Virus record (IMG/VR): IMGVR_UViG_3300033148_002656
Coordinates: 1-37,991 of that record
Length of the DNA stretch: 37,991 nucleotides
Source of the DNA: a virus
Strand: one strand, 5' to 3'
Shown here in pieces: positions 11,843 through 37,991 of this stretch (within the stretch, counting starts at the first letter, position 1; each line of letters begins with the position of its first letter). The translations under genes and the position numbers were made by a program. The notes beneath the pieces were generated by a model. That model was not told the DNA's origin. It did not search any database and worked only from the letters and a program-made list of their open reading frames with translations.

Positions 11843-13354
11843 TTAAAATGGTTCGTTATTCTTTTCAAAGTCTCTACTTTCAAATCCAGCATTTGGACTA
11901 GTAGGAATAAAATCGTTAACCCTATCATTTTTCTTTTCAAGTATATAATCCTTAGTATCTCTCCAAGTCGTACAGGATTTATTTACATCTACAAGTATCT
12001 TATCAGGACCGTTAGCCCTATCCTTTGCAAAGTTTAATATGGTTGTTTCATTCCAGTCTACATCTTGGTATTGCTCACTTGAATTATCTTTAAGCAATTG
12101 CTCAAAACTTGGATCTTGCTGAATGTAGTATCTAGGTCTAAAGACAAATATAATCGCATCAGCATCTTGTTCAATACTTCCTGATTCTCTAAGGTCTGCC
12201 ATTATCGGTTGCTTACCTGGTCTTTTCTCAACCTCTCTATTTAGTTGAGCCAAAACGAAAATAGGGATATCTAACTCTTTTGCTAATAGTTTCAGGCCCC
12301 TAGTCATTTCTGATACCTCTTGCTCTCTGTTTTGTTTCTTTCCGGACGCTGATAATAATTGTAAATAGTCAATCAATATCATATCACATCTACCTTTTTT
12401 CTTTAAGCTTCTCGAGACTTTAGAAATGTAATTAAGGTTACAGCCTGCTTTATCATCAATAAACATGTTAAGCTTCTGTAATTCATCATGAGCCTCTTGT
12501 AATCTACCTTCTTCTTCATCTGATAAATTACCCTTTAAGAATCTTTTAGAATATCCATCATCTAAATTATCATCAGAATCTAAACCTTCGGCCTCTGCAA
12601 TTAATAATCTATCAGCTAAACTCACATCATCCATTTCTAAAGAAAAGAAACAAGGATGTTTGGAATCCTTACTTGCTGCCTTAGCTTCTTGTAGAGCATA
12701 GGCTGTTTTCCCCATTCCAGGACGTGCCGCAATTATTATAAGCTTACCACCTTGCCAACCGTTTGTATGATCCGTAATAGCTCCACTGAATGAAGGTATT
12801 CCCGCAATCTTACCCGATAAGAATAATTCTTTACGCTCATGATATTTTAAAACCGAGTCAGTAGCAACTAAAGAAACGTTTCTACCAGTAGATTCATTAT
12901 TAGTCACCTTATCCATAAGCCTAACCATATCATCCCATAAAGCAATAGATTCTAAAGGGTCAACGTCTGCAAATGCTTTAGATTGAATAATAGATGAGAC
13001 TTTAATAAGCTCCCTTTGAATGTATTTCTGAGCTATTATTCTAGCATGGTTTTCTATGTGAGCCGCATTAGCTATCTTAGTTGTTAGACTCGAAACAAAG
13101 AAAGCACCGCCTACATTTTCAAGCTGCTTAGTAAAAGTTAACCTATCGCAAACAGTTAATAAATCAACAGGTGAATGATTAGTATTTAAATAATCAATAG
13201 CTGAATAGATAACTTTATGAGCTGGCTTATAAAATGAATCCTCATTAATTATTTCACAAACCTTTTCATACGAATCCTGTTCTAAAAGTAAAGCCCCTAG
13301 AACGGCTGTTTCGAGATCTATTGATTGTGGTGGGATTAGTCCGTGTTGTTTCAT
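11843..13354 (-). CDS. dnaB: Replicative DNA helicase (DnaB-like), 503 aa
   Basis: This hexameric helicase unwinds the fork during phage replication. The N-terminal domain starts in the DnaB manner (PPQSIDLETAVLGALLLEQDSY). The RecA-like domain has Walker A AARPGMGKTA (about 209-218), the FFSLEMDDVSLADRL motif, Walker B MILIDYLQLL, the Gln-containing VLAQLNREVEKR and the DLRESGSIEQDADAIIFVFR arginine-finger region. Length is typical. It is two bases downstream of the DUF4373 initiator gene and must be cotranscribed with it. No primase or polymerase gene was seen, so host enzymes are probably recruited. Confidence 0.95.
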   Translation of the reverse strand: MKQHGLIPPQSIDLETAVLGALLLEQDSYEKVCEIINEDSFYKPAHKVIYSAIDYLNTNHSPVDLLTVCDRLTFTKQLENVGGAFFVSSLTTKIANAAHIENHARIIAQKYIQRELIKVSSIIQSKAFADVDPLESIALWDDMVRLMDKVTNNESTGRNVSLVATDSVLKYHERKELFLSGKIAGIPSFSGAITDHTNGWQGGKLIIIAARPGMGKTAYALQEAKAASKDSKHPCFFSLEMDDVSLADRLLIAEAEGLDSDDNLDDGYSKRFLKGNLSDEEEGRLQEAHDELQKLNMFIDDKAGCNLNYISKVSRSLKKKGRCDMILIDYLQLLSASGKKQNREQEVSEMTRGLKLLAKELDIPIFVLAQLNREVEKRPGKQPIMADLRESGSIEQDADAIIFVFRPRYYIQQDPSFEQLLKDNSSEQYQDVDWNETTILNFAKDRANGPDKILVDVNKSCTTWRDTKDYILEKKNDRVNDFIPTSPNAGFESRDFEKNNEPF

Positions 13355-13356
13355 GG

Positions 13357-14082
13357 TTACATAAAATTAAATTTCTCAGTTGGGTTTTTAGTTTCTGGTT
13401 CTGAATAGTCAGGTAGGTTATTTAGAAACGTGCTAAAGTTCTTAATAAATGTTTTACCTGTTGTGCATTCAGAAACATATCTTTTAATCATAGCCTTTAA
13501 TTCATCGGCTGTATTTGTTTTTAATAATGATTTGATTTTCGTTTTATTGGTTTTACTCTTACCAGTCGAACAATTCTTTACAGGGCATCTTGTTGGATAG
13601 AGGGAATATATCTCATTGGCGGCGTCAGCCTCTTTTTGTATCTTTTCTTTTCCTTTACTTTCCTTTCTTTTCTTTTCTTTGCTAGGTGTGGCTTTAGCAT
13701 TGCTAGGCTTTTGCTTTGACGATGCTTTAGCAATACCACCTAAACGCCCCGCCTCTGCACGCTTCCTTCTCTTCTCATCTACTTGTTCCATTCGAATCAT
13801 TAACGATTCAGAGAAGAAACGACCATCTTTTTCCACTAATAAGTTAGTGTCAAAACAGAGATTTAAAATACCGTTTAGCTTTTCTTTAGTAGTGTTTAAG
13901 CTAAGGGCTAGACCTGCTTTAGCATTGCTAGAAAATGAGTAATCTGAACTTTCTCTAAGCGTTTCTATTACTGCCCAATACAAGCCGTAACCTTCCCATC
14001 CAAACTCGGACCGTAATTGTAAAATCTTTTCGTCACCTCTAGCATTGCTATCATGTGAGAAATAATAAGCTTCTTTTACCAT
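13357..14082 (-). CDS. DUF4373 / Lin1244-type replication initiator, 241 aa
   Basis: The N-terminal 100 residues match the DUF4373 (Lin1244/Lin1753-like) pattern: YYFSHDSNARGDEKILQLRS, then GWEGYGLYWAVIETL. This winged-helix-like domain is found in phage and plasmid initiators and helicase loaders. A low-complexity Lys/Ser/Ala linker follows (about 110-150), then a C-terminal domain with DELKAMIKRYVSECTTGKTF and FLNNLPDY, resembling DnaD/loader tails. The gene is followed directly by dnaB. Its DNA contains three perfect 11-bp palindromes and a polypurine tract, so it may carry the origin, as lambda O does. Confidence 0.75.
   Translation of the reverse strand: MVKEAYYFSHDSNARGDEKILQLRSEFGWEGYGLYWAVIETLRESSDYSFSSNAKAGLALSLNTTKEKLNGILNLCFDTNLLVEKDGRFFSESLMIRMEQVDEKRRKRAEAGRLGGIAKASSKQKPSNAKATPSKEKKRKESKGKEKIQKEADAANEIYSLYPTRCPVKNCSTGKSKTNKTKIKSLLKTNTADELKAMIKRYVSECTTGKTFIKNFSTFLNNLPDYSEPETKNPTEKFNFM
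13641..14050. other. Candidate replication origin with three TAGCATTGCTA iterons
   Basis: TAGCATTGCTA occurs perfectly at 13695-13705, 13920-13930 and 14040-14050. Each copy encodes Ser-Asn-Ala followed by Lys or Arg in the initiator protein. Next to the first copy, 13641-13680 is 40 nt of pyrimidines with a single exception on the plus strand (polypurine on the minus strand). Iterons plus a strand-asymmetric tract inside the initiator gene is the lambda O/ori arrangement. No function is proven. Confidence 0.45.
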
Positions 14083-14085
14083 CTA

Positions 14086-14256
14086 TTAGTCCTCCAAGCT
14101 TAAAAGGTTTGTAATATAATGTATATCAGAAACACTATAAGTATTGTTTTTCATTTTGAGATTTAAGCTACTTCTGTGAATACCTAGTTTTGACGCTAAC
14201 CATACTTTACTAATTCCCTTTTCCTTTAACGCTTTGTTAATTTTATCCGTAAACAT
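14086..14256 (-). CDS. Cro/XRE-type helix-turn-helix regulator, 56 aa
   Basis: ATG at 14256 gives MFTDKINKALKEKGISKVWL, then ASKLGIHRSSLNLKMKNN, a clear XRE-type helix-turn-helix (WLASKLGIHRSSLNLKMKNN), and a short C-terminal helix. It is the first gene of the leftward replication operon, between divergent promoters, so it probably controls the early switch. At 56 residues it has no dimerisation or cleavage domain, so it is Cro-like rather than a CI-type lysogeny repressor. Confidence 0.8.
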   Translation of the reverse strand: MFTDKINKALKEKGISKVWLASKLGIHRSSLNLKMKNNTYSVSDIHYITNLLSLED

Positions 14257-14283
14257 AACTGTGTTTTATTAATTAATAGTACA

Positions 14284-14313
14284 CAAATATATACATTTAG
14301 TTTTAATAAACAA
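14284..14313 (-). promoter_or_regulatory. Leftward early promoter (replication operon)
   Basis: Minus strand TTG (14311-14313), 19 nt, TATATTTG (14284-14291), a perfect Bacteroidota promoter about 28 nt upstream of the regulator's ATG. Together with 14475-14504 it forms the divergent early control region. The 14257-14544 gap is very AT-rich and holds no gene. Confidence 0.75.
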
Positions 14314-14474
14314 CCATTCCCCAACATTTATTTCCCCAACCTCACATATAAATAATGTAATAATCTTTACATGTTCTATTATCGTGTATATAAATTACGT
14401 TTTTCTATACCTTATATATATAATGACCACAACCCACCTAAATAAAATTAATTATTCTTTTATCGTTTTATTAG

Positions 14475-14504
14475 TTGTTTATTAAAATATTAATGTTAGA
14501 TTTG
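14475..14504 (+). promoter_or_regulatory. Rightward early promoter
   Basis: TTG (14475-14477), 19 nt, TAGATTTG (14497-14504). The bases just downstream (TATAACGAAATGAGA) are shared with the 20145 promoter, and in both cases contain an ATG that opens a mini-frame almost at the expected transcription start. Confidence 0.75.
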
Positions 14505-14544
14505 TATAACGAAATGAGATACTAACTTTTAAAAATTGAATGAG

Positions 14545-15585: not shown

Positions 15586-15837
15586 ATGACACTATTTAAT
15601 GATAATGAAGATAAAAAGATTAATGAATATGACTGGGGTGGAATGCCTGAGTTTGTTCAGGAAAAACAAGAGCCTTATTCTAAAATAATATTTCGATTCG
15701 CAAACGAAGAGGATTTACAGGAGTTTGCGGAATTAATAGGACAGAAACTCACAAGTAAAACCAAAAGCGCATGGCATCCAAGATTAATTAGGGGCATCAA
15801 CTCAAATAAAAGATATTCAAATGAATCCAAGATATAG
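15586..15837 (+). CDS. Small partner protein of the glycosyltransferase, 83 aa
   Basis: The core reads WGGMPEFVQEKQEPYSKIIF, then FANEEDLQEFAELIGQKLTSKTKSAWHP. I associate this pattern with small phage proteins found next to, or fused with, base-modification or glycosyltransferase genes, from memory and without a search. Its end overlaps the start of the glycosyltransferase by 17 bases, implying translational coupling and a joint task. No catalytic motif is visible, so it may be a binding or targeting subunit. Confidence 0.6.
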   Translation: MTLFNDNEDKKINEYDWGGMPEFVQEKQEPYSKIIFRFANEEDLQEFAELIGQKLTSKTKSAWHPRLIRGINSNKRYSNESKI

Positions 15838-16648
15838 TATTTATATAATTTCAAAAGGTAGGGCTGAAAGATGCCTAACAGCTAGGGAGCTTACTAAAAT
15901 GAATGTTCATTTTAAGATAGTTGTAGAGCCGCAAGAAAGAGAAGTTTACGGCAAAGTCTGGGGTTTTGAAAATCTAATAATAACCCCTTTTAGTAATTTA
16001 GGGCAAGGCTCTATTCCTGTTAGAAATTTCGTTTGGGAATTATCTATTAATAAAGGAGAAGAACGCCACTGGCTAATGGATGATAATATAGAAGGATTCC
16101 ATAGGCTTAATCGAAACATGAAGCCAAAAGTCACGGATGGTACTATTTTTAAATGTTGTGAGGATTATACAGATAGATATTCTAATGTCGCAATGTCAGG
16201 ATTGAATTATTATTCATTCTGCAAAACGACCGATAAAGTACCACCATATTATTTAAACACTAGAATTTATTCATGCTCATTAATTAATAATTCAATGCCT
16301 CATAGGTGGCGTGGCAGATTTAATGAAGATACTGATATATGTTTAAGGATGTTAAAAGATGGTTACTGCACAATTCTATTCAATGCTTTCCTAGCTGGTA
16401 AGGTTACGACTATGAGAATGAAAGGCGGCAATACTGGAGAGGTTTATGGAGATACCGATAATCGGAAAGAGTTTGCTTTGAGTTTAGAAAATCAGCATCC
16501 AGATGTAGTTAGGACTGTTTGGAAATTTAACAGGTGGCATCATCAAGTTAATTATAAGCCATTTAAAAACAATGAATTAATTAAAATAGGTAATAATAAC
16601 TACAAGGGAGTTGATAATTATGGTATGGAACTAATCGAAATAGAATAA
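15821..16648 (+). CDS. TAGT-like glycosyltransferase, 275 aa
   Basis: The protein has a GT-A layout: an N-terminal Rossmann-like start (YSIYIISKGRAERCLTAREL), the metal-binding motif WLMDDNIEGF (Asp87-Asp88-Asn89), and a later acidic motif RFNEDTDICLRMLKDGY. These features fit the TET/JBP-associated glycosyltransferase (TAGT) group described in phages, which transfers sugar to hydroxymethylated bases. No hydroxymethylase, TET or modified thymidylate synthase gene is seen in this genome, so the acceptor is unclear: a host-made base, another nucleobase modification, or a protein. Translated in overlap with its 83-aa partner. Confidence 0.7.
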   Translation: MNPRYSIYIISKGRAERCLTARELTKMNVHFKIVVEPQEREVYGKVWGFENLIITPFSNLGQGSIPVRNFVWELSINKGEERHWLMDDNIEGFHRLNRNMKPKVTDGTIFKCCEDYTDRYSNVAMSGLNYYSFCKTTDKVPPYYLNTRIYSCSLINNSMPHRWRGRFNEDTDICLRMLKDGYCTILFNAFLAGKVTTMRMKGGNTGEVYGDTDNRKEFALSLENQHPDVVRTVWKFNRWHHQVNYKPFKNNELIKIGNNNYKGVDNYGMELIEIE

Positions 16649-17240: not shown

Positions 17241-18131
17241 ATGTTAGAAATAGGCAAAAAAGCAACAGTAAGTAAGGACCTTATTTACGGACCCGAGGGA
17301 GTAGGTAAATCAAGTTTAGGGTGTACATATCCAAGTCCTTTATTTTTAGATTGTGAAGGTTCAACGACTAAGTTAGATGTAGCTAGAATAAGAGTTCATA
17401 ATTGGAATGATTTTATTGAAGCTACAAACATGTTGATCTTGAATGAAGAACCCGTAAAGGATTTTGAAACAGTTATTATCGATACTGCCGATTGGTTAGA
17501 AAAGATTGCAATTGATAAGATCCTAGAGGAAGATGGAGTTCCAAACATGAATGATAAGCTGTACACTTACGGTAAAGATTCAGTTAGAATAAAAGGATTC
17601 TTCGAAACCAGTATTACACCAGTATTTGAAAAGATAATGGCAACAGGTAGGAATATAGTTATCATTGCCCACTCTGTAGTTAAGGGGTTTGATGATCCGA
17701 TCTTAGGCCGATATGATTACTATGGTATCGATATGAATAAAAAAGCCTCTGCGATTCTTAGGCAGTGGGTTAATAATGTTTTCTTTATCAACTACAAGAC
17801 ATATATAAAAGAAGGTAAAGGCATAGATAAAGATAGAGCTATTGGTGGAACAGAAGTCGTTTTACATACTAAGAAATCAGCTCAATATGAAGCTAAAAGG
17901 CGTGATGATTTAGATGATGTTATTACGTTTGAGGAAAATGAATGTCCTTATCCTGAGATTATTGGAACTACTGTTATTAAAGCTGAACAAATCGCTAAGA
18001 TTAAAGCCTGTAAAACTGAAGGTGAGTTAATTAAACTGTGGGCATCCTCTTTTATATTCCAAAAGAAAACATGGTTTGAATCAGAGTTTAAAGCTCATAC
18101 GGTTAAGGTTAGAGAATCAGTAAGTAAATAA
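17241..18131 (+). CDS. Sak4-like RecA-fold ATPase, 296 aa
   Basis: Walker A YGPEGVGKSS (about 16-25) with a preceding beta strand, then LFLDCEGSTTKLD, Walker B ETVIIDTADWLEK (about 75-87), and NIVIIAHSVVKGF. This order (phage nucleotide-binding / AAA_24 type) is that of Sak4 proteins, RecA/Rad51-related recombinases that promote single-strand annealing in phages. It sits upstream of an SSB-like gene, the usual partner of Sak4. It would act in recombination-dependent replication or repair. Confidence 0.8.
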   Translation: MLEIGKKATVSKDLIYGPEGVGKSSLGCTYPSPLFLDCEGSTTKLDVARIRVHNWNDFIEATNMLILNEEPVKDFETVIIDTADWLEKIAIDKILEEDGVPNMNDKLYTYGKDSVRIKGFFETSITPVFEKIMATGRNIVIIAHSVVKGFDDPILGRYDYYGIDMNKKASAILRQWVNNVFFINYKTYIKEGKGIDKDRAIGGTEVVLHTKKSAQYEAKRRDDLDDVITFEENECPYPEIIGTTVIKAEQIAKIKACKTEGELIKLWASSFIFQKKTWFESEFKAHTVKVRESVSK

Positions 18132-21195: not shown

Positions 21196-21288
21196 ATGTC
21201 TATAACTGCAATATTAATAATCCTAGTTGAGTTTATATTGGCTTGGATTTTATCGGGAATTAAAACTAAAACGAATGATACTAAATAG
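21196..21288 (+). CDS. Tiny membrane protein, 30 aa
   Basis: MSITAILIILVEFILAWILS then a short basic tail. ATG is one base after the previous stop and the end overlaps the methyltransferase start by 14 bases, supporting translational coupling. Confidence 0.5.
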   Translation: MSITAILIILVEFILAWILSGIKTKTNDTK

Positions 21289-22048
21289 ATTAGGGAATAA
21301 AACTAATATAGCACACAAGATACATCCGCATTTCCCACCACACAAAATATATTACGATTTGTTTTTTGGTGCTGGAGGCATGTATTTTAATAAGCCTAGA
21401 TCTCAGTATTCAATAGTTAATGATTTAGATTCTGATGTGTTTAATTTATTCAGCGTTGTCAAAGATAAGCTTGATGATTTTATATTTATATTAGATTCAA
21501 CACCAATGTCAGAAGAGCTGTTTTATTATTGGATGGATAATAAAGAATCTGATTCTGTTAATAAAGCTTTGAGATTTTTATTTATTTCATCTTTCAGCTA
21601 TTTAGGCAAGATGGACACTTTTAAATTACTTCACTCTAATTGCGCAACGAAGCAAAAATTAAAATCATTAATAATAAAATGCTCAGAATTATTCCAAAAT
21701 ACAATGATACGGAATAAGGATTTTAGAGATTTTTTAGATGGTATTCAAGATGATGATGCGCACATAGGCAAACAGGATAGATTTATTTATGCTGATGCAC
21801 CATATTTAGACACAACGAGTACTTATAATACTCCAAAGTGGACTAAGAAAGATGTTGTTGATTTGCTTGATATGCTGCAGACTTCTAAAATTAAGTTTGC
21901 ATATTCAGAGTTTGATCACCCTTTTATTTTAGAGCAAGCAGAAAAGAGAGGATTAAATGTTATTATAATTGGTGAAAGATTGAATTTAAAAAATAGAAGA
22001 ACTGAAATATTAATAACTAATTATAAAAATCAACCAACACTATTCTAA
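21275..22048 (+). CDS. Dam-type (D12) DNA adenine methyltransferase, 257 aa, variant motif IV
   Basis: N6-adenine methyltransferases of the D12 class open with a GNK motif (RLGNKTNIAHKI), have motif I DLFFGAGGMYF (about 28-38) with the following ND.D (VNDLDSD), and motif IV DPPY. Here motif IV reads YADAPYLDT: Asp174-Ala175-Pro176-Tyr177, so the first proline is replaced by alanine. The catalytic Asp and Tyr are kept, so it may still work. The ATG at 21275 is chosen because it starts the family's conserved end. Phage Dam enzymes usually protect DNA from host restriction. Confidence 0.82.
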   Translation: MILNRLGNKTNIAHKIHPHFPPHKIYYDLFFGAGGMYFNKPRSQYSIVNDLDSDVFNLFSVVKDKLDDFIFILDSTPMSEELFYYWMDNKESDSVNKALRFLFISSFSYLGKMDTFKLLHSNCATKQKLKSLIIKCSELFQNTMIRNKDFRDFLDGIQDDDAHIGKQDRFIYADAPYLDTTSTYNTPKWTKKDVVDLLDMLQTSKIKFAYSEFDHPFILEQAEKRGLNVIIIGERLNLKNRRTEILITNYKNQPTLF

Positions 22049-37699: not shown

Positions 37700-37991
37700 C
37701 TATAAATAATCAAATATAGTTTTAGGCTCTCTTGATTTCAATTCTTTTTCTATTTTATTCTTTAATTGCTCCAAACCTTCAAGTTTAACATCGTCAAACT
37801 TAGCGTTTAGGAGTTGTTTTAAATACTTCTCTTCCATTAAAAGCTTTTCGAAATTCATATTCTTCAAGTCGAAAGTAGAAGCCTCGTCATTCATTCCCCA
37901 TGATGACAATGTAGACACTTCGCGTATGATAAGATTATCAATTACCCTAACCTCTTTATCATCCATCTGTTCGTAATGCCAATCTTTAACA
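37700..37991 (-). CDS. Prohead protease, C-terminal part (continues from position 467)
   Basis: In the circle this is residues from about 156 to 214 of the S78 protease; the bases 37878-37991 are the repeat of 1-114. It carries the REVSTLSSWG part with the third catalytic region, then a helical charged end (LLMEEKYLKQLLNAKFDDVK; KIEKELKSREPKTIFDYL). Gap to the capsid gene is 29 bases. Confidence 0.9.
   Translation of the reverse strand, partial: VKDWHYEQMDDKEVRVIDNLIIREVSTLSSWGMNDEASTFDLKNMNFEKLLMEEKYLKQLLNAKFDDVKLEGLEQLKNKIEKELKSREPKTIFDYL
37878..37991. repeat. Terminal direct repeat, right copy
   Basis: Exact copy of 1-114; see the left copy. Confidence 0.95.

Follow-up and report, generated by a model that had tools for sequence, protein, structure and literature searches.

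Why should a phage replication initiator gene carry, in the middle of its coding sequence, a long strand-asymmetric tract with short repeats beside it, and is this where the phage begins its replication? The question arises in a virus record of 37,991 nt, analyzed over its whole length and called here the window. Its two ends overlap directly over 114 nt (1-114 and 37878-37991), which makes the genome circular or terminally redundant. The gene is on the minus strand (13357-14082) and encodes a 241-amino-acid protein that matches both the Pfam family Lin1244_N (PF14297; E 1.8e-13, 51.5 bits against a gathering score of 25) and phrog_2562, a replication initiation protein in PHROGs (E 3e-23). 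Lin1244_N, which is the same as DUF4373, is its sole Pfam match, with neither homology to the lambda O family nor a match to PF07261. The DnaB replicative helicase gene lies directly downstream on the same strand (dnaB, 11843-13354; PF03796, E 5.1e-71), and the order given in a preliminary description of this DNA, a DUF4373 initiator and then dnaB, is thus borne out by Pfam. The next gene 3' of the initiator is therefore the helicase itself, not a helicase loader as in the lambda O/P module. Directly upstream, a small HTH protein of 56 amino acids is encoded on the minus strand (14086-14256), its HTH_26 score of 19.5 bits falling below the Pfam cut-off of 22. Beyond it, an AT-rich, non-coding, divergent region (14257-14535) separates the leftward from the rightward early genes and probably holds promoters, and there is an overlapping inverted repeat at 14255-14290.

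The initiator is made up of a winged-helix-like N-terminal Lin1244_N domain (amino acids 7-93), a low-complexity, lysine-rich linker whose DNA is proposed to carry the origin, and a helical C-terminal domain. In the AlphaFold model (pLDDT 80.9), the N-terminal domain is confident and the linker is less so, and a PDB fold search with this model returns weak winged-helix matches, including transcription factors, none of them with E below 0.001. Judging from the DNA and from its relatives, the linker DNA is very probably the phage origin. By analogy with lambda and with SPP1 oriL, the winged-helix domain of the initiator would bind iterons of 11-nt pitch, one helical turn apart (13681-13735); the resulting complex would open the adjoining AT-rich, strand-asymmetric 5-nt tract (13641-13680); and the C-terminal part of the protein would help to place the DnaB made next door on the opened strand, with replication starting at the linker. 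The amino acids of the linker would then be dictated by these DNA elements.

The tract is the plainest of these elements. The preliminary description reported a 40-nt polypyrimidine tract at 13641-13680, and this is indeed the longest in the window (the next has 27 nt), with a single purine. On the coding (minus) strand it reads as eight 5-nt units, AAAGA AAAGA AAAGA AAGGA AAGTA AAGGA AAAGA AAAGA. Its 5-nt period is strong: identity at lag 5 reaches 31/35, the best in the window, where the next site has 23, and the maximum of 2000 synonymous shuffles is 30. It is AT-rich and strand-asymmetric, and it adjoins a proposed iteron array of five degenerate units of about 11 nt (13681-13735, minus strand), which on the coding strand are TATTGCTAAAG CATCGTCAAAG CAAAAGCCTAG CAATGCTAAAG CCACACCTAGC. 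These units share AGC at steps of 11, 11, 11, and 10 nt. Because this chain has a P of about 0.02 against synonymous shuffles of the one gene, and simple lag-11 identity in the window's array is not significant against such shuffles, the assignment of iterons in the window leans on the family, in which they are clear.

The repeats that first drew attention to the gene are three copies of TAGCATTGCTA, described as perfect copies of a palindrome and taken as the iterons of the origin. The copies are exact (13695-13705, 13920-13930, and 14040-14050), there is no further exact copy in the window, and all three encode Ser-Asn-Ala, as had been claimed, each time as AGC AAT GCT in frame. Their symmetry is only that of a near-palindrome of odd length (TAGCA-T-TGCTA). 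No other 11-mer of the window occurs three times within 1 kb, and synonymous shuffles of the initiator gene never yield three copies (0/5000). At a random Ser-Asn-Ala, the codons AGC AAT GCT have a chance of 0.041 in this phage's codon usage, or about 7e-5 for three, and the tripeptide is absent from the 20 other ORFs examined. As an iteron set, the three copies do not hold together. The copy at 13695 is the only one within the array, beside the tract, and the same word is found in the linkers of Lactobacillus phages LBR48 and JNU_P2 and of Enterococcus phage EF62phi. The copy at 13920 lies 225 nt outside the array; it shares 16 nt (GCTTTAGCATTGCTAG) with that at 13695, which leaves room for a possible extra binding site, and the nearest relatives have no Ser-Asn-Ala at its place. 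The copy at 14040 covers the codons of HDSNAR, a protein motif conserved in the family. Conservation of the Ser-Asn-Ala codons had been put forward as the test of the original proposal, and here they vary freely across the family (Ser AGC 44/112, Asn AAT 67/112, Ala GCT 21/112), for which reason 14040 is rejected as an iteron. At the Ser-Asn-Ala motifs of the linkers, AGC is used in 34/47 and AAT in 44/47. The palindrome tends to occur at the N-terminus and in the linker of the same genes (Fisher P 0.009), an association weakened by the relatedness of the genes.

The first lead outside the window came from LBR48 and JNU_P2, in which the 11-mer recurs both at the N-terminal HDSNAR and in the linker, as it does here; EF62phi shares it in part. 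A single-protein search of viral contigs for close relatives confirmed none. A subsequent profile search found relatives both in IMG/VR and among bacterial genomes, chiefly those of Bacteroidota and Bacillota: 162 genes, reduced to 128 non-redundant ones, of which 118 were long enough and were tested, although they are not phylogenetically independent. The design thus extends beyond the Bacteroidota phages for which it had been proposed: phages of Lactobacillus and Enterococcus have it, as do many genomes of Bacillota, and the two-part signature recurs in related initiator genes of numerous phages and prophages whose hosts are distant from one another. Some of the Bacillota members carry PF07261, a DnaD-type domain. 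In the relatives, the downstream gene encodes DnaB in 26/72, a DnaC-like IstB protein in 11/72, and a G39P-like protein in 4/72.

When the linker DNA of these 118 relatives is compared with synonymous shuffles, in which protein and codon usage are kept, two periods emerge. Lags of 5, 10, 15, 20, and 25 give z values of 48, 37, 25, 30, and 20, and lags of 11, 22, 33, and 44 give 31, 23, 15, and 12. Gene by gene, z exceeds 3 at lag 5 in 25% and at lag 11 in 17%, and not every relative shows both elements clearly; among control ORFs from the same loci, none of 188 has a z above 3 at either lag. Of the 118 genes, 96 have a lag-5 identity of 24/35 or more (14.7 expected), and 46 have one of 28/35 or more (1.6 expected). 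These figures bear on whether the repeats simply serve the protein, the repeated codons being a by-product of a charged, flexible Lys/Glu/Ser linker and of a repeated Ser-Asn-Ala. HDSNAR is indeed a conserved protein motif with free codons, and the linker is low in complexity and rich in lysine. Yet repeated peptides cannot account for lags of 5, 10, 11, 20, 22, and 25, none of which is divisible by three, and neither the silence of the control ORFs nor the codon and frame data below fit such an account, which we regard as highly improbable. The comparison instead indicates that selection acts on the linker DNA, not on the protein alone.

Across the family, the unit of the tract is approximately AAAG plus a fifth base, T, G, or A. 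Four or more AAAG/AAGG pentamers in a row are found in 50 of the 118 genes (4.5 expected), on the coding strand only, usually some 400 to 490 nt from the gene start. When the fifth base falls at the first codon position it is almost always G or A and never T, because T there would create an in-frame TAA stop; T is common at the other two positions. IMG/VR was scanned blind with a single 29-nt form of the tract, which yielded 110 stretches, and among the matches listed 80/80 encode KVKESKVKE in an open frame (a few of these 80 are truncated fragments, left out of the individual classification). Wherever the protein could be classified, the scan hit initiator-type genes only: 60 of the 61 proteins chosen from it for Pfam are Lin1244_N, and one protein of another type (L202) has hits to replisome-organizer and O-like families and to DnaD-like loaders. 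When the pentamer pattern was instead of AGAGT type or ACTAA type, blind scanning gave no matches. At the KVKESKVKE sites found with an all-codon pattern (at least 81 among the matches listed, a sample in which contigs may be related), Val is GTA in 100% (background 32%) and Ser is AGT in 100% (background 20%), a fixation that a need for the peptide would not explain.

The iterons follow a different rule, in that their pitch is constant and their words are not. The commonest word in the linkers, GCAATGC, is read in each of the three codon frames (56, 42, and 11 places), which again argues against a role in the protein; it is in reverse orientation in 6 places. Its spacings are 11, 22, or 33 nt in 54 of 56 cases, as against 5.8 such spacings per shuffled replicate; since the shuffles keep the protein, they also keep some of this spacing, and the informative part is the excess in number. 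In other members the 11-nt pitch is kept with unrelated words, such as TTCAACCACAG, TCAACGGACGT, and AATCGCCACCC. In a gut phage relative (L005:2492-3502), linker words resembling ATCGCCACCCGATAG, again unrelated as an iteron sequence, likewise recur with spacings that are multiples of 11 nt. Order is also maintained: in genes with both signals the lag-11 maximum is upstream of the lag-5 maximum in 29/33, and where GCAATGC is present, its distance from the 5-nt tract is most often 4 nt.

This arrangement helps in weighing a role in expression, in which the iterons would form an operator for autoregulation, or the purine-rich stretch would work at the mRNA level (through open structure, or internal sites resembling ribosome-binding sites). 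Initiators often autoregulate, and on the coding strand the tract is rich in purines, with AAAGGA among its words. However, iterons and tract stand mid-gene, about 400 nt past the start, adjacent and in a fixed order, as in the mapped origins of lambda and SPP1, and the signature tracks initiator genes in Bacteroidota and Bacillota alike. We therefore hold a role in expression to be unlikely. Somewhat harder still to sustain is the idea that the linker DNA binds the initiator without being the main origin, acting as a replication-control locus or a second origin while the main one is elsewhere, for example at 14257-14535. That region is AT-rich and non-coding, and there is a precedent in SPP1, where gene 38 holds one origin and another lies elsewhere (PMC6316719). 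But the iterons of the relatives directly adjoin the tract inside the gene, and within the window no exact copy of TAGCATTGCTA lies outside the initiator gene. GC skew, which had been suggested as a check, follows gene direction and is uninformative on the origin.

An origin in the linker can be set beside several known systems. In lambda, two iterons and the AT-rich tract make up the minimal fragment for unwinding (PMC7466680). As in gene O, the proposed origin is in the middle of the initiator gene, with iterons and then an AT-rich tract that in lambda is also purine-rich on the coding strand. Candidate iterons within the initiator gene are found across the family, with a weaker signal when the window is taken by itself (P about 0.02), and 13641-13680 is an AT-rich, strand-asymmetric tract beside them. 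Unlike the window, lambda has four iterons of 18 bp whose starts are 20 to 24 bp apart, lacks a 5-nt period (lag-5 identity 19/35), and follows O with the loader P; the window protein is a Lin1244_N member and not of the O family in Pfam. Comparison thus strongly supports one half of the lambda-like origin first proposed, an intragenic origin beside a strand-asymmetric tract, and the other half, the three palindromes as the iteron set, has to be given up. In SPP1, oriL within gene 38 consists of direct repeats and an AT-rich unwinding element (PMC6316719). It resembles the present case in having both inside the initiator gene, along with genes for a loader and a DnaB-type helicase (PMC6316719), and differs in the presence of a second origin, oriR. 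RepA_N initiators (pSK41, PLE RepA) are also of winged-helix type and bind semi-palindromic iterons (PMC7145576), but they belong to a different Pfam family and the PLE iterons are in a non-coding region.

Short repeats in an unwinding element are known from bacterial chromosomes. At Bacillus subtilis oriC, the DnaA-trios and the DnaD recognition element are recognized as single strands, DnaD binding TnnT (PMC10201434), and at Vibrio cholerae ori2, RctB recognizes 5-nt repeats in single-stranded form (PMC10797057). The window's tract is similar in placing short repeats in a proposed unwinding element, whereas those systems are host or secondary-chromosome origins lying outside the initiator coding sequence, and the trios have a 3-nt period rather than one of 5 nt. 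We tentatively suggest, at a little short of an even chance, that the 5-nt tract represents a distinct class of origin opening: a one-strand register read as single-stranded DNA by the initiator or a loading partner, in a role like that of the DnaA-trios, yet phage-borne, within coding sequence and shared across phyla, the tract being constant and the 11-nt iterons varying. By inspection, the pyrimidine strand of the AAAG pentamers contains 5'-TnnT-3' in every unit, as is expected of any T-rich strand, and a link between the 5-nt register and DnaD-bound TnnT is put forward purely as a hypothesis. In the open-access literature searched, neither DUF4373 nor Lin1244 turned up in connection with phage, and we found no account of a 5-nt tract within a phage initiator gene. 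If the linker is an origin, a register for single-strand recognition is predicted, and a simple rule, 11-nt iterons adjoining a 5-nt tract in Lin1244_N genes, should locate origins in many uncharacterized phages and prophages. The Lys-Val-Lys-Glu-Ser linkers would then be a by-product of origin DNA, an overlapping DNA signal dictating protein sequence.

A few further observations concern the initiator's C-terminal domain and the rest of the window. In a Bacteroides phage, a protein with the annotation "preneck appendage" (L008:2501-2704) is 56% identical to this domain and has a different N-terminus. PHROGs assigns it as a replication initiation protein, which makes the annotation probably erroneous and suggests that the C-terminal domain is swappable. 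Elsewhere in the window, 17241-18131 encodes an AAA_24/Sak4-like single-strand annealing protein and 21227-22048 a D12-class N6-adenine DNA methyltransferase (PF02086). A putative glycosyltransferase of the TET-associated family (15821-16648; PF20691, E 3.1e-46) suggests that the phage DNA is hypermodified.
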